From Akkermansia muciniphila (GTDB taxonomy: Bacteria > Verrucomicrobiota > Verrucomicrobiia > Limisphaerales > SIAT01): 50,610 bases of DNA. The position numbers and the translations under genes were made by a program. The stretch covers positions 1-50,610 of the forward strand of contig CAMDJP010000016.1 in assembly GCA_945900775.1 (NCBI GenBank). The letters run 5' to 3'. This document shows positions 35,711 through 46,669 of this stretch, piece by piece. The notes under the pieces were generated by a model. The model saw only the letters and a list, made by a program, of their open reading frames with translations, was not told the DNA's origin and ran no database searches. How positions within the stretch are numbered: the first letter of the stretch is position 1; each line of letters begins with the position of its first letter.

Positions 35711-36331
35711 CTACTTGTCGGAAGTCTTCAGCAACTCCTCAGCCGACCACGGAGCAGTGCGGCTCTTATCGGCATCACGAATCTTTTTGACCTCCTCGGG
35801 AGTGACACCGGAGAAGCTGTGGTTCCAGTCCTTGTTGCGGCGGACGTAGGAGATGACCGAGGCGACCTGCTGGTCGGTCATGTTGTCCTTCCACGGAACC
35901 ATCGCGTTGTTGTAATCCAGCCCATTGACCTTGATGGGGCCCTGAATGCCGTGGAGCACGAGACGGATGATGCGGTTCGGCCCCTCGGTGTTCACCCAGT
36001 CCGAGCCGGCGAGCGGTGGGAACTGACCAGCCGAGCCGAGGCCGGAGGCCTGATGGCAGGCGGCGCAGTTTTGGCTGTAGAGCTTGCGGCCTTCGAGGAA
36101 GACAATCCGCTCGGGATCTTTCGGCAGCATATCCTCGAGTTCCTTGGTCGAGGTATAGGGGGCGAAGACCTGGGCGGAGAAATCGCCATCGTTGTCATCG
36201 AGGCGGAGGGCGACGCCGTAGGCGAAGACGGCGAGGGCGACCAGCACCCAGACGGGAAAAGTACCAGCATTGGTCTGCGGCTCGGCCGCATCGGCCGGAA
36301 GCGTGGAAATGTTTGGAGTGTCCGCGTTCAT
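35711..36331 (-). CDS. Membrane-anchored mono-heme cytochrome c (CcoP-like position)
   Basis: 206 residues. One span at about 24-42, then a class I cytochrome c domain with a CAACH heme site (residues 89-93), FPPLAGSDWV, and a distal Met in the NNAMVPWKDNMTDQQ segment. It overlaps the preceding CcoO-like gene by 4 bp (ATGA), so the two are translationally coupled. It is the last gene of the ten-gene respiratory operon and occupies the place of CcoP in a cbb3-type cluster, though it has one heme rather than two. It likely carries electrons at the periplasmic face. A role in a supercomplex with alternative complex III is inferred. Confidence 0.85.
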   Translation of the reverse strand: MNADTPNISTLPADAAEPQTNAGTFPVWVLVALAVFAYGVALRLDDNDGDFSAQVFAPYTSTKELEDMLPKDPERIVFLEGRKLYSQNCAACHQASGLGSAGQFPPLAGSDWVNTEGPNRIIRLVLHGIQGPIKVNGLDYNNAMVPWKDNMTDQQVASVISYVRRNKDWNHSFSGVTPEEVKKIRDADKSRTAPWSAEELLKTSDK

Positions 36332-37008
36332 TTCTTGGCAGGGGAATTAGTGCTGGGAGCCGAGAGCTTGGCCGGCTTCAGCCCGGGCTTGGCCGGCAGC
36401 GGTGCCTCGAAAAGCGGTGCATCGGCGCGCAGGCTGCGCAGGTAGGCGACCAGCGCGAGCGCATCGGGTTTTGGGACCATCTCGTAACCCTCAAGCCGCT
36501 TGGTCTCCTCGGGCGACAGCTTTAGCGCGTTGGGGGAAGGCTTGGCGCCGGCATCGAGGGCGCGCTTCGTGAAAAGGAAACGATAGGATGGCATGCTGGA
36601 TTTTTCGACTATCAGCCGCGGCTTGTAGAGGTGGATGAGATGCCAGTTGTCGTCAAGTTGGCGGGCACCGATGTTGGCGAGGTCCGGACCGATGCGGGAG
36701 GAACCGAGCATCACCGGCGCGTCGAAGAGGTAATCCTGCGCCACGGTGCGGCGCGGACCCCAGCCGCGATTGATGTCCGCCCCCGGACGTACCTGCTGGC
36801 TGTGACAAGCAGCGCAGTTGTTCGCGCGGTAGACCTCCGCACCCTGTTGGGCGAGGCCCGGGCGGGCGCTAGGGTAGATTTCACCGGTCTCCTCAATCTC
36901 CACCGGCTTGAGCGCACCGAGTTGGATCTGCGGCCAGACAACGAGGCCGAACCACGAGGTGGACAGCGCGGCGAAAATGCCGAGCATCAGAAGCGGGGCT
37001 TGATTCAT
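36328..37008 (-). CDS. CcoO-like membrane-bound cytochrome c
   Basis: 226 residues from ATG 37008, preceded by a strong Shine-Dalgarno sequence (GGAGGT, 5-base spacing) inside the end of the preceding gene. One N-terminal span (about 5-25). The CcoO signature is clear: EVYRANNCAACHSQQVRPGA with the heme site at residues 65-69, later RIGPDLANIGARQLDDNWH and KSSMPSYRFLF with the probable Met ligand. In cbb3 oxidases CcoO passes electrons to CcoN. Here the CcoN-like partner has lost most cofactor ligands, so this subunit probably hands electrons elsewhere. It overlaps both neighbours by 4 bp. Confidence 0.88.
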   Translation of the reverse strand: MNQAPLLMLGIFAALSTSWFGLVVWPQIQLGALKPVEIEETGEIYPSARPGLAQQGAEVYRANNCAACHSQQVRPGADINRGWGPRRTVAQDYLFDAPVMLGSSRIGPDLANIGARQLDDNWHLIHLYKPRLIVEKSSMPSYRFLFTKRALDAGAKPSPNALKLSPEETKRLEGYEMVPKPDALALVAYLRSLRADAPLFEAPLPAKPGLKPAKLSAPSTNSPAKK

Positions 37009-38429
37009 CGGGCACCTCCGTTCGATTGCATCGCGCAGGCCAGCGCATTGCACGGGCAGAACTGGCGCACGAGCAACCGCACCAGATTTCCCACCAAGAG
37101 CAGTGAGCCGGCAAGCCAGAGAATTTCGCCAAGCGTGGTAACGCGATAGGCCATCAGTGCGCGGCGCGAAATTTGGCTGAAGTCAATGCTCGGGTCGAGC
37201 AGGCTGATCCCTTGGCGCCAGCCGCCAAAGGCTAGCGGTAACGCGACGAGCAGCACGCCCGCGACGGCAAGTGTGTAGTGCCACTTCACAGGGCTCTCAC
37301 ACGGCCAGTCAGCACCGCTCAGACGCGGAACGATATGATAGATTGCGGCAAACATCGCCATCGCAAACGCGCCGTACAAAGCGAGATGCTTCACTCCCAC
37401 GGTAAAGTATGTGAACTGGGTTTGCGCGCTGAACATCGGGCTCATCACCATCACCAGCGTCGCCAGCAAGTAAGCGAAGAGGCCGAAACCGGCGAAGCGA
37501 AGCACGCGGCACTCGGCGCCGAGCACCGCTCGACCGTCAGCCGTCGCATGGAGGTTCCACGCCACCGCGAACAGCGGAAAGAGCATTAGCACGCTGGCGT
37601 AGTCGCCAATGCGAACCATCCAAAGCGGGAGCGGCGCGCCGTTGTGCAGTCCGGTCCAACCGCCGAGCACGAGCAGCATCCAAAAACCGATCAGCGCGTA
37701 GCTGCGGTTGTAAAGCGGGCGGTTGAGGAGCTTCGGCACGAGATAGAAAATCACAGCCAACGCCGAGCCACCGAGCCAGACTTCGCGCAACACCGCGCTG
37801 GCCCACCAGTTGATAGCCACCTGGGCCACGCCCCGCACTGGGTCAACCAGCAGCAGGCTCTGTACGGTGAGGTAGGCCCACGGCAAGGCGAAGAGCGCGC
37901 CGAGCAGGTACCATTGCGAAACGTAGCCTTCGCGCTCGCGGCGATTCAAATAGGTGCTCAGAGCGCAGAGGGCGATAGCCGTGTAGGCGATGAGGAGCGC
38001 CGGTACTGCGTAAGACGGGAACTCAAAGCCTTCGTAGCCACTGCTGTCGCCGGCAATAATCCCACCGATACCGACCGTCACGGCGAGATTCCAGACGACC
38101 GCGCCGAGCAGTGCCACGCGCGGTTGCACAAGCGGCGTCCCGCCGAGTCGGGCGAGCATCCAGAGCGTGACGCCGAGAATCGCTTGGGCAGCGAACCCGA
38201 ACAGAAAGGCATTGCTAGAGGCGGCGAGGATGCGGCCGTAGGTCAACTCGGCGCTGCCCTCGAGCAGGAGCGGTTGGTGCATCTTGAGCGAGGCAATCAG
38301 GCCGAGCACGGCGGCGGCCACGAGCCAGAGGGCGGCACTGGTGAAGAGGAACAGCACCGGAAGACGGCAGGAGGCGTCAATCTCCGCCGAGGCGGTGGCG
38401 CGGGATTCGGTTTGGGTCGGAAGGCTCAT
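37005..38429 (-). CDS. CcoN-like (cbb3-type subunit I) membrane protein lacking most heme/Cu ligands
   Basis: 474 residues from ATG 38429, about 12 spans. Similarity to CcoN runs through the whole length (for example FYLVPKLLNRPLYNRSYALI, FTYFTVGVKH, AIYHIVPRLSG). Compared by eye with classical CcoN, the low-spin heme His in the LHTNAV motif is Ser71, the CuB His of WWYGHN is Ala212, the CuB pair in GPHH is His262-Asn263, and the helix-X HVH is Val346-Lys-His348. Only two of six ligand histidines remain, and the active-site Tyr region is Gly-rich. Oxygen reduction is therefore unlikely. It may be a scaffold or quinone/cytochrome docking subunit in the alternative complex III assembly. The C-terminus has an odd Cys cluster (FCPCNALAC). 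Confidence 0.82.
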   Translation of the reverse strand: MSLPTQTESRATASAEIDASCRLPVLFLFTSAALWLVAAAVLGLIASLKMHQPLLLEGSAELTYGRILAASSNAFLFGFAAQAILGVTLWMLARLGGTPLVQPRVALLGAVVWNLAVTVGIGGIIAGDSSGYEGFEFPSYAVPALLIAYTAIALCALSTYLNRREREGYVSQWYLLGALFALPWAYLTVQSLLLVDPVRGVAQVAINWWASAVLREVWLGGSALAVIFYLVPKLLNRPLYNRSYALIGFWMLLVLGGWTGLHNGAPLPLWMVRIGDYASVLMLFPLFAVAWNLHATADGRAVLGAECRVLRFAGFGLFAYLLATLVMVMSPMFSAQTQFTYFTVGVKHLALYGAFAMAMFAAIYHIVPRLSGADWPCESPVKWHYTLAVAGVLLVALPLAFGGWRQGISLLDPSIDFSQISRRALMAYRVTTLGEILWLAGSLLLVGNLVRLLVRQFCPCNALACAMQSNGGAR

Positions 38430-38454: not shown

Positions 38455-38826
38455 TCACTCGAAATCAATCTTCGGCGGCGGCGCACTGGCCTTGTCCACG
38501 CGCTGCAGCAAATTGCTGCGCGCGCTGGCCGGGTTCTCCCATTCCTTCACGGTGAGCTTCATTGCCTCGGTGACGGGGAGGCGGACGATTTTGCGCGCGG
38601 GGTCGAGCCGACCGTAGTTGGCGAGGGCCTCGGCGTCGGCGGCATTCAACTCGGCGAGCGCCTTCGCACGTTCCGCGCCTCGGCCCGCGTCGATGGCTGC
38701 AGGACGGGCCGGCAGATAGTGGCTGATCACCCAGCCGATGAGAACGGCAACCAGCACAACGCCGACGATTTCGCGGACGTAGTGGGACTCGGCGACCTCG
38801 GCGGTCTTGTCGGTTCCGGTCTTCAT
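38455..38826 (-). CDS. Small single-span protein of the alternative complex III operon
   Basis: 123 residues. A short charged N-terminus, one span at about 20-38 (IVGVVLVAVLIGWVISHYL), then a soluble Ala/Glu/Arg-rich domain with VRLPVTEAMKLTVKEWEN and a Pro-rich end. No heme site or Cys. Its start codon directly follows the actF stop (TAA then ATG) and it precedes the CcoN-like gene by 25 bp, so it is firmly part of the operon. The IVRLPVTEAMKL phrase recalls a small motif seen next to oxidase genes (a sentence such as IPIDEAMRLT in cytochrome-linked proteins). Family unknown; probably an accessory subunit joining the two halves of the complex. Confidence 0.8.
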   Translation of the reverse strand: MKTGTDKTAEVAESHYVREIVGVVLVAVLIGWVISHYLPARPAAIDAGRGAERAKALAELNAADAEALANYGRLDPARKIVRLPVTEAMKLTVKEWENPASARSNLLQRVDKASAPPPKIDFE

Positions 38827-40035
38827 TTAAGCATGGTCTCCCTGATTCTCGGCGGCGCCGTGCCCGAGCGCTTCCTCGAAGCGCGGGTCCTTCTGCGGAT
38901 AAGGGGCGTGTGCGTGGAAATATTTCAGGAACACGATAGTCAACGTGCCACCGATGAACGCCATCGAGGCGAGGTCGGTCAGCGCGAAGTGGATCCCAGT
39001 CGTATGGAACACCGGCATGATATTGTACTGCATGTCGAGGTAATGCATCAGCCAGACCCAGATGATCATCGGGATCATCAGCTTGAGGTTCAGCTTGGCG
39101 TCGATACGCAGCATCAGCAGGAACGGTCCGAAGAAATGGCCGAACACGGTAATCATGCCGACCGCCCACCACGAACCCTGTTCGCGCAGCACGTACCAGA
39201 AAGTCTCTTCCGGCATCGCCGCGTTCCAAATCAGGAAGTATTGGGAGAAGTGAATATAGGCGTAGAACACCGTGAACGCGAAGAGCAGCACGCCCATGTC
39301 GTGGTACTGCCGCCGGTGCAAGATGGGGATGTACCCGCGGCGCTGCAGCACGATTGCGATGATGTAGACGGTCGCCAGCGTCGTCCAGACGCTGCCGGCG
39401 AAGTAGTACACGCCGTACATCGTGGAGAAGAACTGGTGCTGGAGAGATTTCATCCAGTAAATCGCCGCGAGCGTGAGCGAGAAAGCGAAGATGAAGATGC
39501 CGCCGGCTGCCCATTTGCGCAGTGCGAAGGTGCACTCAGGCGAACCAGTCTCGTCCTGCTTGAGCGACCAACTGCGGAGCTTGTAGCTCAGCAGGGCCCA
39601 AACGCCGAAGAGTACCACGGCCATGATGTAGAACGTCGGTGGGTTGAAGAGCGCGACCTTCACGTGCAGCGCGTGGTCCAGGTTCGGATCGATGGTCATC
39701 CACGGGTAGAGCTTCGGCGCCAGCCAGGCGATTGGGATGAAGAGCAGTCCCAGCACCGGCGTGAGGAAGGCAATATGCTCCAGAAAGCGGCGGATCGGCA
39801 CCGACCAACTCGAGTCGAACAGGTGATGCAGGAGCACCAAGAACATCGAGCCGAGGCAGATGCTCAGGAAGAACATGAAGGCCACCAGATAGGAGTAGCC
39901 GAATTGCTTCAGATCCGAGAACGCACCGACCGTCAGCCCGATGAAGCCGGCCACGGCGAACACGTACGGCAGCTTCTCCCAGCCCGACCCTTCGTGGGCG
40001 GCGGCGGGCGTAGCAGTGGCAGCGGGTGAACTCAT
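38827..40035 (-). CDS. actF: Alternative complex III subunit ActF
   Basis: 402 residues with about ten spans. It resembles the second quinol:cytochrome c oxidoreductase membrane subunit (GSMFLVLLHHLFDSSWSVPIRRFLEH; SQYFLIWNAAMPEETFWYV). Such subunits are distant relatives of ActC/NrfD. It is in the canonical place after actE, 4 bp away, and abuts the small single-span protein gene. In known structures ActF forms part of the membrane core; the quinol site is mainly credited to ActC. Confidence 0.93.
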   Translation of the reverse strand: MSSPAATATPAAAHEGSGWEKLPYVFAVAGFIGLTVGAFSDLKQFGYSYLVAFMFFLSICLGSMFLVLLHHLFDSSWSVPIRRFLEHIAFLTPVLGLLFIPIAWLAPKLYPWMTIDPNLDHALHVKVALFNPPTFYIMAVVLFGVWALLSYKLRSWSLKQDETGSPECTFALRKWAAGGIFIFAFSLTLAAIYWMKSLQHQFFSTMYGVYYFAGSVWTTLATVYIIAIVLQRRGYIPILHRRQYHDMGVLLFAFTVFYAYIHFSQYFLIWNAAMPEETFWYVLREQGSWWAVGMITVFGHFFGPFLLMLRIDAKLNLKLMIPMIIWVWLMHYLDMQYNIMPVFHTTGIHFALTDLASMAFIGGTLTIVFLKYFHAHAPYPQKDPRFEEALGHGAAENQGDHA

Positions 40036-40039
40036 AACC

Positions 40040-40654
40040 TTATTTCAGTTGCGCACGCTCGGCGGCGGAAAGCTCATCCTCAAAGGCCAGCCGACTGCGC
40101 TGGAGAGCACGCAGATAGGCAACAATCGCCCAGCGGTCCTCAATGGTGACATTCGCCTTGTAGCCACCCATCAGGTTGCGACCCTCCGAGATGACGTAGA
40201 ACAACTCGCCGTCCGGCAGCTTCACGATGCGCGAGTCGTGCAAGCTAGCGACGACCGCCATCGCACCGATTTTCTTCGTGATGCCGTTGCCGTCGCCCTG
40301 AGCGCCGTGGCACGGCAAGCAGCTGATCGCGTACCGATCGCGCCCACGAGAGAGAAGTTGCGGAGTGACCTTTAGCGGCAGGTTCTCCACGAAGTTCGTC
40401 ACACCCGACACGCGGCCGGTGTTCTTCGGCGTCGCGGCGAACGGCGTGCCGCGGGCAACCGTTCCATCCACCAAAAGCTGCGAGCTAAGGCCGTTGGGGA
40501 GTAACGCGTTCGGCTCCTGCGGGCGGAGCTTCGGCTGACGATCCATATCCGAGAAAATCTCGAGCGGCGGCTTGCGGGAGATGTCGCCACGGAAGCCGAG
40601 CACGCTCACTACGAGCGCTGAGACAAGGGTCAATCCGAGCACAAAGTAACGCAT
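40040..40654 (-). CDS. actE: Alternative complex III mono-heme cytochrome c ActE
   Basis: 204 residues. A N-terminal signal anchor (YFVLGLTLVSALVVSVLGF) and a cytochrome c domain with CLPCH (residues 112-116), then a MxGYK-type distal loop (GRNLMGGYKANVT). Mid-region FSDMDRQPKLRPQEPN is typical for ActE. A strong ribosome binding site (GGAGGAG, 4 bases before ATG) lies in the end of actD. ActE passes electrons from the multi-heme ActA side to the downstream acceptor. Confidence 0.94.
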   Translation of the reverse strand: MRYFVLGLTLVSALVVSVLGFRGDISRKPPLEIFSDMDRQPKLRPQEPNALLPNGLSSQLLVDGTVARGTPFAATPKNTGRVSGVTNFVENLPLKVTPQLLSRGRDRYAISCLPCHGAQGDGNGITKKIGAMAVVASLHDSRIVKLPDGELFYVISEGRNLMGGYKANVTIEDRWAIVAYLRALQRSRLAFEDELSAAERAQLK

Positions 40655-40655
40655 G

Positions 40656-41185
40656 TTACTCCTCCACCTGCTCGATGTGCTTGCTGCCGGCCGACTCCAG
40701 CAACTTGCGGGTTTCCGTTTCCGAGTACTGGCGATCGGTCGTCTCGATGACGATGTAGAACTTGTCGTGCGTCACCTGCGCGAACCGCTGGTTCTTGAGC
40801 AGCGGATGGTGCAGGCACGGCAGGCGGTTGAGGAAAAGCATGCCGAAGATCGTCGCGAACGAGGCGAACAGAATCGTCAGCTCGTAGCTCACCGGGAAGG
40901 CGAAGAGCGGACTGAAGAGCGGCTTGCCGCCCACCACGATGCGGTAGTCGACGGCGTTCTGGAACCAAATCATTAGCATGCCGCTGGTGTAGCCGGTCAC
41001 GCCACCGATGAAGGTGAACCAGCCGACGTTCGAATTCTTGAGGCCCATCGCCTCGTCCATCCCGTGGACCGGGAACGGCGTGTGCACGTCCCAGTGCTTG
41101 AAGCCGGCCTTGCGCACGGCGCGCGCAGCGGCCATCACATCCGCCGGGGTATCGAACTCGGCGATAATGCCGTAGGACTTGCTCA

Positions 41186-41186
<1 letters not shown>
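40656..41186 (-). CDS. actD: Alternative complex III subunit ActD (DUF3341)
   Basis: 176 residues. The DUF3341 start (YGIIAEFDTPADVMAAARAV, GFKHWDVHTPFPVHGMDEAM) is unmistakable, followed by two spans (about 60-80 and 97-122) and a C-terminal ferredoxin-like half (HDKFYIVIETTD). It shares one base with the actC stop (TGATG), with a GGGAGGG ribosome binding site. ActD contributes two membrane helices and a cytoplasmic domain to the complex and carries no cofactor. Confidence 0.95.
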
Positions 41187-42612
<1,426 letters not shown>

Positions 42613-42613
<1 letters not shown>

Positions 42614-45600
42614 CAGCGCACTCCTTTCTTGGTCTCAGCGCCGTTCTTGCCATTGTCATTCGCCTTGTGCTCACCGAATGGGCTCGCGTTCTTCTCGAAC
42701 TTGGTGCCGGTGTGCTCAGTGAGGCTGAAAGGGTACTCGTGGTAATCAGGCATTGCCGGGTTCGGATTGCGAACCTTGGCGAGGTAGGTAATGCGGGGGC
42801 GGTTGTCGAGGAAGCCAAGCACTGCGTAGTCACGTGGCTGCTGCTTGAGCTGGGAGACACGGCTCTTGGGATCGAGCACGTTGCCGAAAACAATCGCTTC
42901 TGCAGGGCAGGCCTGCTGACAAGCAGTCTGCAGCGCGCCATCGCGCACAGCAACATCGCCGGTCGGGCCGGCCTTCACCTTTTGCGCGATTTTGGCCTGC
43001 TCGATGCGCTGCACGCAGAACGTGCACTTCTCCATCACGCCGCGCATCCGGACGGTCACGTCTGGGTTGCGAGCGAGCTTGAGCAACTCCCACTCGTCGG
43101 ACTGGCGCTTGGCGAACGGTCCGGCGTAGAGATTCTCAATGGGGCGCTTGTTGTAATCGAAGAAGTTGAACCGGCGCACTTTCCACGCGCAGTTGTTCGA
43201 GCAATAACGCGTGCCGATGCAGCGGTTATAGGCCATCAGGTTGAGGCCTTCCTCATCGTGCACAGTGGCGTTGACGGGGCAGACGCTCTCGCACGGAGCA
43301 TTCTCGCAGTGCTGACAGAGCATCGGCTGGTTCACGACCTGCGGCTCGTCAATCCACTCGAACTTCGCTTGGTCCACGTCCGTGCCGGTCGGGTTGCGCT
43401 TGAGACTAGGCAGACCGGTGAAGTAACGGTCGATGCGCATCCAGTGCATCTCGCGACCGCGGGTCACCTGATCCTTGCCGACAATCGGGATATTGTTCTC
43501 GCTCTGACAAGCGATGACGCACGCCGAGCAGCCGACGCACATGTTCAGGTCGATCGACATGCCCCACTGGTGCACATCGCTCTTGAGCGTGGGGTGGGCG
43601 TCGTATGGGTGCTTGTAGATTCCGAGAGGTTGGCCGGTCTTCGGGTCAACCGGGATGTGCTTGGCATGCGCCGGCGAATCCAGGTCCATGTTCTTGGCGA
43701 AATCCGGCTTCTTCTCAAACTGTTTGAGGTTCGCCTCGCGGACGATCGGTCGACCTTCCATCGACCAATGATCCTGTGTGCAGGCGAACGGCGAAACGAA
43801 ACCCGTCTTGGAAAGGGTGGCACCCGCCGCGAAGTGGGGTCCCGCCGTCGCGCGGAGCTTGTAGGCATTGAAACCGACTGAGTCCTGCTTTAGAAACTCC
43901 GAGCCGCGGCTGTTGCTGCCGGCAGGCTTCGAAGGTCGCAACGGGTTGTTTGTCGGTTTGAAATTGGCGATGCGCCCACCCTTCTCGCGGCCGTAGCCGA
44001 GGGCGATGCCGACCGTGAACTCCGCTTGGCCGGGCTGGATCCAGATCGGACCCTTCACGGTCCGCGAGTCGAGCTTGAGCTCGACCACGTCGTTGTTCTC
44101 CACGCCGAGCGCGGCGGCCGTCTTGCGGCTCACCAAGACGGCGTTGTCCCAAGTGATTTTCGTAATCGGATCAGGCAATTCCTGCAGCCAGCCGTTGTTG
44201 GAGAACCGGCCGTCATCAAGGCTGTAGTCGCGCGTGAAAATGACTTCGAGACTTTCGGCTCCGGGCGCCTTGGCTGCGCTGGCAGCGGACGGAATCACCG
44301 CCTCATTCAATGTTACGTCCACCGGGATGGCAGCACTGCCGGCGAGGAAGCCGTCATGCAAGAACTTCTTCCACCGCTCCTCATTGTTGCCGGTGGTAGC
44401 AAGGGCCTTGAACGTCTCGCGCGTAAGATTGTACGGCTTGGTCACGGCGAGACCGGCAAGATGAGCGAGCATTTCAGCCTCAGTCAGCGCGTCGAAGAGT
44501 GGCGCGATGAGCGGCTGCACCGGCACCAGCGTGCCGTCGCTCGTGCGGGCGTCAGCCCAGGTCTCGAGATAATGCGCGACGGGCAGATGCAGGCTGGCAC
44601 CAGCGGCGAAGGTCTCGTCCTCGTAATAGCCGAGGCGGACAACGTTTTTGGCCTTCTTCTGCGCGGCGGCCCAATCGAAATCGGCTGGGGCATTGTAAGC
44701 CGGGTTGCCGCCAAGAATGACAAGCGTCGAGACCTTTCCAGTCTTCAGCGCGTCAGCAAGCGAACCCAAATTGTCTTCCACTGGCGTGGGCGCGGGCAGG
44801 AACTGGATGGTCTTGCCGTTGTTACCGAGTGCGGCGTTGATGGCGTGGGCGAAAAGATGGACGGCGAGCGGCTGGCGATAACCGGCGAGCACAAGCGAGC
44901 TGCCCTTGTGCTGGAGCAGATCTTTCGCGCATTCCTCCGCCCACTTCTTGTCGGTGGGGCTGAAACCGGCAGGTAAAGTGACTTCCTGTCCACGCACCTT
45001 CGCGAGAACCGCGGCGGCCAGCGCTGCAACGTGCGACGCAGAAAGGCGCAAGCGATGATCGGCGTTCGCGCCGGTCTGGCTCATCAGTGCCTCAGCCACG
45101 TAGAGCCGGTTCATCTTGTCGCCCGGCTTGGCGATTTTGCGGCCTTTGGCGAAATTGCGAATTGACCGCTGCACGTCTTCTTCGCTGCCGATGAAATCGC
45201 AGTCGAGCGAGAGAATCACGTCGGCCTTGTCGAGCTGCGGATAGGGGCGCACGTCCTGGCCATATGCGGCACGGGCCGCGGCGCGGTGGATATCGAAGTC
45301 CACGGGTTCATAAACGAACCAGCGAGCCTTCGGGAACTTGTCGGTGACAAGCTGCTGCACACGTGCGCGCGTGGGCGAATTGCTGCGCTCGAGCAGGAAA
45401 CAAAGGCCTTCGCCGCCATTCGCAGTCGCCGCAGCGGAAAGCGCGGATAGCTTCGCGAGCGCTTCCTCACGGGAGATTATTTTGCTCTCGTCGCGGAAAT
45501 GGCGCGCACGATCGGCATCGTAAAGATTGAGGAGCGACGCCTGCGCGAAAACATCCGTACCGCCGTTCGCCTGCGGATGTTCCCTATTGCCTTCCACCTT

Positions 45601-45969
45601 CACAGGGCGGCCCTCGTGGGACTTCACTAGCAACGGCACCGCACCCGCGCGCGTCGGCATCGACGTCGCGTAATACTGCACCACACCGTGTATGTAACCC
45701 TCGGGCTGCTTGGTGAAAGGGACAATCTTCTCGACCGGCCGACGACAGCCGGTGCCGAAGAGGCCGAGACCAGCCAGCGCGAACGGCGCGGCCATGAGCT
45801 TGATGAAATCGCGGCGAGTACTCTCGTCCTGCATCTCACTGGCGCCGGCGGGGAACTCGCGCACAGCCCAGTCCTTGAACTCGGGCGTATCGGAGAGTTG
45901 ATCGAGGCTGCGCCAGTAGACGACGCCGTTATCGGGCTCGGGACAGATGGGGGGAATCGTTTTGCTCAT
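42613..45969 (-). CDS. actB: Alternative complex III iron-sulfur subunit ActB
   Basis: 1118 residues. A variant Tat motif lies some 50 residues in ([19 protein letters not shown], Arg52-Arg53), preceded by the family start [14 protein letters not shown]. The large molybdopterin-oxidoreductase-like part (about 90-750) lacks a visible cofactor-binding Cys/SeCys in place, in line with ActB being Mo-free. The C-terminal ferredoxin-like part (from Cys811) has four Cys clusters: [37 protein letters not shown] and CTFC with CQQACP. Family members carry three [4Fe-4S] and one [3Fe-4S] cluster. It overlaps actA by 4 bp and actC by 1 bp. It works outside the membrane between ActC and ActA. Confidence 0.95.
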
Positions 45970-46616
45970 CGATGACAGGCAGAGCAGTTCTGCGAAGCGT
46001 TGACTTTCCAGTCGTGGACGAACTTGGCGCCATCACGCTGGGCGAAGCCCGGTGGAGCCTTCCAGTCGAGGTTGTACACCTGCTCGGGCGGACGAATCTT
46101 CTCGGCCGGATTGCGATGGCAATCGAGGCAGAAGGACATTGAGAGCGGTTTGTCATGCCGCACCTCGTCCATCTTGTTCACCTGCCCATGGCAATGGACA
46201 CAGGAAACACCTCGGTTCACGTGGACCGAGTGGTTGAAGTACACGTAGTCGGGTGTCTTGTGGATTTGCGTCCACGCAATCGGCACGTTGTTGGAATAGC
46301 TGTTACGGACCAAGGTGAGCTTCGGATCGTCCTTCAGCACTTGATTATGGCAATTCATGCAGGTGCTCGATGCCGGCACGTTCGAGTACCAGGATTTTTC
46401 CACACCGTTGTGGCAGTAGCGGCAGTCAATACCGAGCTGACCCGAGTGAATCGTGTGCGAGAAGGGCACCGGCTGGACCGGCTGGTAGCCCACGTTCGTG
46501 TACTTGTTGGTAAAATAATAGGTTACGCCAGCCACAGAAACGCCAGTCACGAGCACCGCGCCGATGATGAGCCACACCGGCAGCCGATTCGTCCATTTTG
46601 GAAAGATATCAGACAT
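45966..46616 (-). CDS. actA: Alternative complex III pentaheme cytochrome c ActA
   Basis: 216 residues from ATG 46616, matching the usual family start (MSDIFPKWTNRLPVW); an in-frame ATG at 46637 would add seven residues. One span at about 13-34 anchors it. Five heme sites are visible: CRYCH 65-69, CMNCH 86-90, CVHCH 139-143, CLDCH 163-167 and CSACH 211-215. It receives electrons from ActB clusters and passes them to ActE. It is the first gene of the operon; a perfect CRP/FNR-like palindrome lies about 55-70 bp upstream of its start. Confidence 0.95.
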   Translation of the reverse strand: MSDIFPKWTNRLPVWLIIGAVLVTGVSVAGVTYYFTNKYTNVGYQPVQPVPFSHTIHSGQLGIDCRYCHNGVEKSWYSNVPASSTCMNCHNQVLKDDPKLTLVRNSYSNNVPIAWTQIHKTPDYVYFNHSVHVNRGVSCVHCHGQVNKMDEVRHDKPLSMSFCLDCHRNPAEKIRPPEQVYNLDWKAPPGFAQRDGAKFVHDWKVNASQNCSACHR

Positions 46617-46669
46617 TCGAAAAAATAGCGGCCGCATCCTACCGCCCTACGCCACGAGCGCAAGCGGTT

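Follow-up and report, generated by a model that had tools for sequence, protein, structure and literature searches.

Subunit I of the heme-copper oxidases is a textbook protein that is defined by its metal centre. The window analysed here (the whole stretch of 50,610 nucleotides, contig CAMDJP010000016.1 of the assembly GCA_945900775.1) encodes a relative of CcoN, subunit I of the cbb3 oxidases, in which most of the metal ligands are missing. Why is such a protein apparently kept without its metal centre, repeatedly and widely, and what could it do beside alternative complex III (ACIII)? The gene, called N below, lies in the following cluster:

45966..46637, minus strand: actA, pentaheme cytochrome c, five CxxCH
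42613..45969, minus strand: actB, molybdopterin-like and Fe-S subunit
41186..42613, minus strand: actC, NrfD-like (PF03916, E 5.5e-20)
40656..41186, minus strand: actD
40040..40654, minus strand: actE, mono-heme cytochrome c
38827..40035, minus strand: actF, multi-spanning ACIII membrane subunit, assigned by position and homology within the act cluster
38455..38826, minus strand: small conserved ORF, 123 aa, one apparent hydrophobic segment, without family match
37005..38429, minus strand: N, CcoN-like subunit, 474 aa, ATG start; four of the six heme/CuB histidines and the catalytic tyrosine missing
36328..37008, minus strand: O, CcoO-like mono-heme cytochrome c (PF02433, FixO, E 5.4e-27), one CxxCH
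35711..36331, minus strand: P, CcoP-like membrane cytochrome c, one CxxCH heme motif

The operon order is actABCDEF-small ORF-N-O-P, and the ACIII set is complete. A preliminary description of this DNA had placed N in an ACIII operon, and this context was borne out, with actA-F, the small ORF, N, O and P all in place. It had located the gene correctly at 37005-38429 and had left out that it is read on the minus strand (38429..37005). Its intact reading frame is an unbroken frame of 474 aa. The translational coupling of N to the CcoO-like gene was also exact: the N/O junction reads ...CCCGATGAATCAA, with a 4-nt ATGA overlap. In most loci, actF and N are separated by the small ORF; L066 and L068 have a longer, heme-bearing cytochrome there instead.

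N was assigned to the COX1 family (PF00115, E 1.9e-43, 149 bits). Against the CcoN model TIGR00780 it scored 96.5 bits, far under the 583-bit cut-off of that model. The closest solved relative was CcoN of P. stutzeri (3mk7; phmmer E 1.7e-21). The AlphaFold model of N (84 homologues) was almost entirely helical, with a mean pLDDT of 94.5 and a pTM of 0.93. When it was compared with the PDB by Foldseek, the seven top matches were CcoN chains (TM 0.86-0.87, rmsd 2.0-2.8), and the 12-helix CcoN fold was present on comparison with 3mk7 (TM-score 0.87). The alignment, the matches to COX1 and TIGR00780 and the TM-score agree with the full-length likeness to cbb3 subunit I proposed earlier.

The host locus shares with the cbb3 oxidase (C-family, CcoN/CcoO/CcoP) of 3mk7 the fold of subunit I, the N-O-P order and heme c in O and P. 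It differs in that N has two of the six metal-binding histidines and no tyrosine, P has one heme motif, ccoS is missing and the act genes are directly upstream. Classical CcoP is a diheme protein. As a cbb3 gene set, the host therefore has the heme-c CcoO partner and lacks the diheme CcoP; P is also monoheme in the ligand-intact relatives.

The ligand positions of N were numbered against P. stutzeri CcoN (3mk7). H60, H207 and H257 correspond to Ser71, Ala212 and His262 in N, and H345 and H347 correspond to Val346 and His348. Alignments differ on whether H258 corresponds to Asn263 or faces a gap, and in neither case is it histidine. The residues named in the preliminary description (Ser71, Ala212, His262, Asn263, Val346 and His348) were all exact, and the active-site Tyr251, which is Gly256 in N, had been overlooked. 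The bis-histidine pair of the low-spin heme b (H60, H347) is incomplete, with Ser71 and His348. The CuB/heme b3 set (H207, H257, H258, H345) and Tyr251 are likewise incomplete, and only H257 is kept, as His262. We infer that N carries no bound metal. Ligand loss of this kind also occurs in two genomes of the same genus (79-83% identity), which rules out sequencing error as the source of the missing ligands.

The survey covered 145 ACIII-linked N homologues in the class Verrucomicrobiae, where the gene order act-small ORF-N-O-P recurs. Six histidines were retained in 22 copies, five in 1, three in 4, two in 17, one in 42 and none in 59. Retention is close to all-or-none: 22/145 copies are ligand-intact with six histidines and the tyrosine, 1/145 is a five-His copy and 122/145 are ligand-poor (three histidines or fewer). 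Tyr251 was kept in 22/22 intact copies and in 0/122 ligand-poor ones. In the latter, the Tyr251 column holds Gly in 80/122, a more uniform replacement than at the histidine positions. The homologue scan used a narrower alignment, and 18 divergent homologues gave no sufficiently conserved stretch.

Histidines in shifted positions could in principle restore the ligand set, as the preliminary description itself had pointed out. The alignment left the set unrestored. Among the ligand-poor homologues (n = 122), the six histidine columns lie at the 68th-95th percentile of column entropy, that is, among the more variable ones, and therefore no hidden constraint is visible there; this candidate was rejected. 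A related reading is that N still works as an oxidase by means of a rearranged metal site, since two histidines are left and the gene is intact. However, the intact homologues have six histidines and the tyrosine, while the 122 ligand-poor ones have at most three and never the tyrosine. Together with the perfect co-loss of ccoS described below and the presence of another oxidase in the genome, this strongly disfavours the reading, which we consider very improbable.

CcoS (FixS) is needed for the insertion of cofactors into CcoN, as work on Rhodobacter has established. When 22 genomes were searched for FixS, ligand-intact loci had a match immediately ahead of N. An HMM for this ccoS-like gene was seeded with five intact-locus FixS matches and one copy from a true ccoN (cbb3) locus. 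With it, the gene was found upstream of N in 21/21 intact loci, in the single five-His locus (1/1) and in 0/116 ligand-poor loci. Every one of the 16 intact loci outside the seed gave a match with E < 1e-10. We regard this co-loss as the strongest evidence that the metal centre would no longer be assembled; it does not depend on aligning histidines. FixS and ccoG searches gave no match for ccoS or ccoG in the host genome (assembly 91% complete). The absence of ccoG carries limited weight, because several intact genomes are also without it.

Could His348, paired with some non-canonical ligand, still hold a single heme or a different cofactor in N? This histidine is conserved within the genus, and the Chthoniobacterales keep H60 and H347, so the family includes partial cofactor retention. 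Against this, members of the genus have Ser or Ala at the partner position H60, only 17% of the ligand-poor homologues have His at the H347 position, and the ccoS-like gene is absent. We consider residual cofactor binding by N quite unlikely.

In most Chthoniobacterales copies, the low-spin heme b pair (H60 and H347) is kept and the ligands of the binuclear centre are gone. Copies of this type were found in L108-L111, L114, L116, L118, L127, L056 and L198, and they may possibly be heme-b-only electron-transfer intermediates. In L054 (7581-9053), only the CuB ligand H207 is gone (Arg), and five histidines, the tyrosine and ccoS are kept; this copy is a candidate for an early step of loss. Together, copies of N that are intact, that keep just the low-spin heme pair or that are ligand-poor form a natural set for dissecting the structural role of subunit I.

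N is maintained as a protein. In comparisons with the two congeneric genomes, its dN/dS was 0.15-0.19, versus 0.05-0.09 for actC, and we conclude that the protein is maintained, less tightly than the core of ACIII. N also evolves faster than ActC or ActF, so the constraint on it is looser than on the core complex. This faster evolution is what a decaying pseudogene would show. But nearly all relatives of the order have matches without an internal stop codon, and Trp, Gly and Pro positions are deeply conserved. Taken with the dN/dS, this refutes the pseudogene reading for practical purposes, and we give it hardly any credence.

The number of losses was estimated from a maximum-likelihood tree of 76 sequences, from which the seven ligand columns had been removed and the longest branches left out. 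Without regain of ligands, the best tree called for six losses, and 1000 bootstraps gave 4-9; this count includes L054, several branches are long and the backbone is poorly resolved. A single loss, with all ligand-poor copies held together, was rejected by the AU test (p = 0.0002, delta lnL 165), which was run after a quick tree had been inspected. That quick tree placed a long ligand-poor branch beside the outgroup and was kept out of the loss count. The ligand losses are repeated, not single. Since ligand-intact homologues also follow actF, the ancestor of N was very probably an active ACIII-linked cbb3-like oxidase.

ActF lies directly upstream of N in 107/108 informative loci, that is, loci with enough sequence. 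The preliminary description had asked whether homologues with the same losses always follow actF. They do adjoin it, but the position is not specific to them, because the ligand-intact homologues adjoin it too. The heme motif is present in O in 111/113 ligand-poor loci and in P in 109/109.

An intact oxidase elsewhere in the genome had been suggested as something to look for, and a complete aa3 operon was found. The one further COX1-family gene of the host encodes an A-type CoxA in which every ligand motif is present. Its operon also encodes CoxC, a Cox4-like protein and a CuA-type CoxB without heme, and the aa3 set is thus complete. It is located on another contig and does not adjoin the act operon. 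Cytochrome bd was not found in the host genome (assembly 91% complete). In total, 68 genomes were searched, and 66 with ACIII-linked N were classed as ligand-intact or lost. Of 45 ligand-poor genomes with a completeness of at least 90%, 44 had a further COX1-family gene (counted by Pfam, possibly including nitric oxide reductase) and the other had cytochrome bd. N was the sole COX1-family gene in 3/9 intact genomes of the same completeness. The difference between intact and ligand-poor genomes gave a Fisher p of 0.012, with relatedness ignored. Three ligand-poor loci read gene by gene showed the order act-N-O-P-coxA-coxC-cox4-like-coxB, with coxA directly after P. Altogether, 20 ligand-poor loci but only 1 intact locus had aa3 genes in the 6 kb downstream; these come from a few related families and are not independent counts.

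We believe that N is probably a former cbb3-type oxidase core turned into a metal-free membrane scaffold for the c-type cytochromes that drain ACIII to another reductase. The heme-copper oxidase fold without metal ligands in an ACIII operon, as originally described, is well supported by the alignment, the structure model, purifying selection, the numerous relatives and the perfect co-loss of the ccoS-like gene. The ancestral unit would have been an ACIII-oxidase made of actA-F and CcoN-O-P. Its oxygen-reducing centre would then have been abandoned, here and in several other lineages; the catalytic tyrosine, the ccoS-like insertion gene and the ligands for heme b, heme b3 and CuB have disappeared. 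Purifying selection has preserved the 12-helix fold, and N would most probably serve as a scaffold in the membrane, keeping O and P, which are single-helix c-type cytochromes, in place against ACIII. The catalytic role would have passed to another oxidase, and the role of N as a platform beside ACIII would have remained. The earlier proposal of a structural or docking subunit, with the CcoO- and CcoP-like hemes as electron exit, fits this context, because O and P keep their heme motifs and aa3 genes follow directly in other families. Electrons may pass from menaquinol to ActB, ActA, ActE and the heme c of O/P, and from there to CuA of a separate aa3 oxidase. Exit through O/P to CuA would be the simplest path, and both the physical docking of N and the direction of electron flow are presumed here from the gene context. 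The findings suggest that, in supercomplexes, subunit I plays a structural part that can be separated from its metal centre.

Two other roles for a metal-free N were considered. N may be a cofactor-free ion-translocating subunit, moved conformationally by ACIII as proposed for ActC and ActF. ACIII already has two cofactor-free membrane subunits proposed as pumps (PMC5928083), and N is polytopic and conserved. However, the residues that are ionisable in at least 60% of the ligand-poor homologues lie mostly at loops and helix ends of the model, and a chain of buried carboxylates was not seen in it. We judge this role unlikely. Alternatively, N may help to assemble or stabilise the c-type subunits or ACIII without being a permanent subunit; the strict co-conservation in the operon would then look identical. 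A full 12-helix CcoN fold with cbb3-like partners directly downstream would nevertheless be large for a chaperone, and this role also seems improbable.

ACIII often precedes oxidase genes and forms supercomplexes (PMC5928083, PMC8361435). The locus resembles the ACIII-aa3/caa3 supercomplex (Flavobacterium johnsoniae; clusters in Rhodothermus and Acidobacteria) in that a quinol-oxidising ACIII is genetically linked to oxidase genes. In contrast to it, a ligand-poor subunit I here lies between ACIII and the c-type cytochromes, the likeness is one of gene linkage, and in some families a separate intact aa3 operon then follows.

Genome papers and a review place ACIII together with a cbb3 oxidase in verrucomicrobial methanotrophs and Opitutaceae (PMC6688271, PMC8498564, PMC11102522), and one of these three ties the ACIII-linked cbb3 oxidase to high oxygen affinity. 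The gene family and the operon are the same as here, and the protein is called an oxidase there, whereas the pmoA-bearing genomes here keep one of the six histidines. This was seen in six loci, read residue by residue, of the pmoA-positive family f68, whose assignment to the methanotrophs rests on pmoA and a nos insertion. Among the COX1-family genes of the pmoA-bearing f68 genomes, no ligand-intact CcoN was recognised. The published ACIII-linked "cbb3 oxidases" of verrucomicrobial methanotrophs thus appear to be the same ligand-poor protein and, judged by their residues, the copies examined should not be able to reduce oxygen. Of the Opitutaceae copies, some are ligand-intact and others are not. 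We found no description of ligand loss in the ACIII-linked CcoN-like protein in the openly readable literature. The same gene occurs in many Verrucomicrobiota of soil and freshwater, and ACIII-linked N is unsafe as a marker of microaerobic respiration unless its histidines are checked. The pmoA-bearing loci are L179, L199-L202 and L204 (genomes G146, G108, G140, G155, G160 and G124), and aa3 genes follow N-O-P in them.

The sole exception to the adjacency with ActF is the pmoA-bearing genome G124 (L204, L206). There, a nos-like (nitrous oxide reductase) cluster separates actF from small ORF-N-O-P-coxA, in agreement with the cluster published for Methylacidiphilum caldifontis IT6 (PMC11102522). 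Electrons of ACIII may therefore also feed nitrous oxide reductase. We would give about even chances to a wider view, in which, within one class of bacteria, the catalytic subunit of an ACIII-linked terminal oxidase became an adaptor without metals at least four times in parallel. Through c-type hemes, it would pass the electrons of ACIII to whichever reductase is available, mostly aa3 and possibly nitrous oxide reductase where nos is inserted.

CydA' of the archaeal CydAA' is likewise an oxidase subunit that was kept after losing its heme ligands; unlike N, it belongs to the unrelated bd superfamily. A second CcoN-like clade (L180-L183, L047) has intact ligands and no linkage to ACIII, and four of its five loci come from more distant genomes of the phylum.
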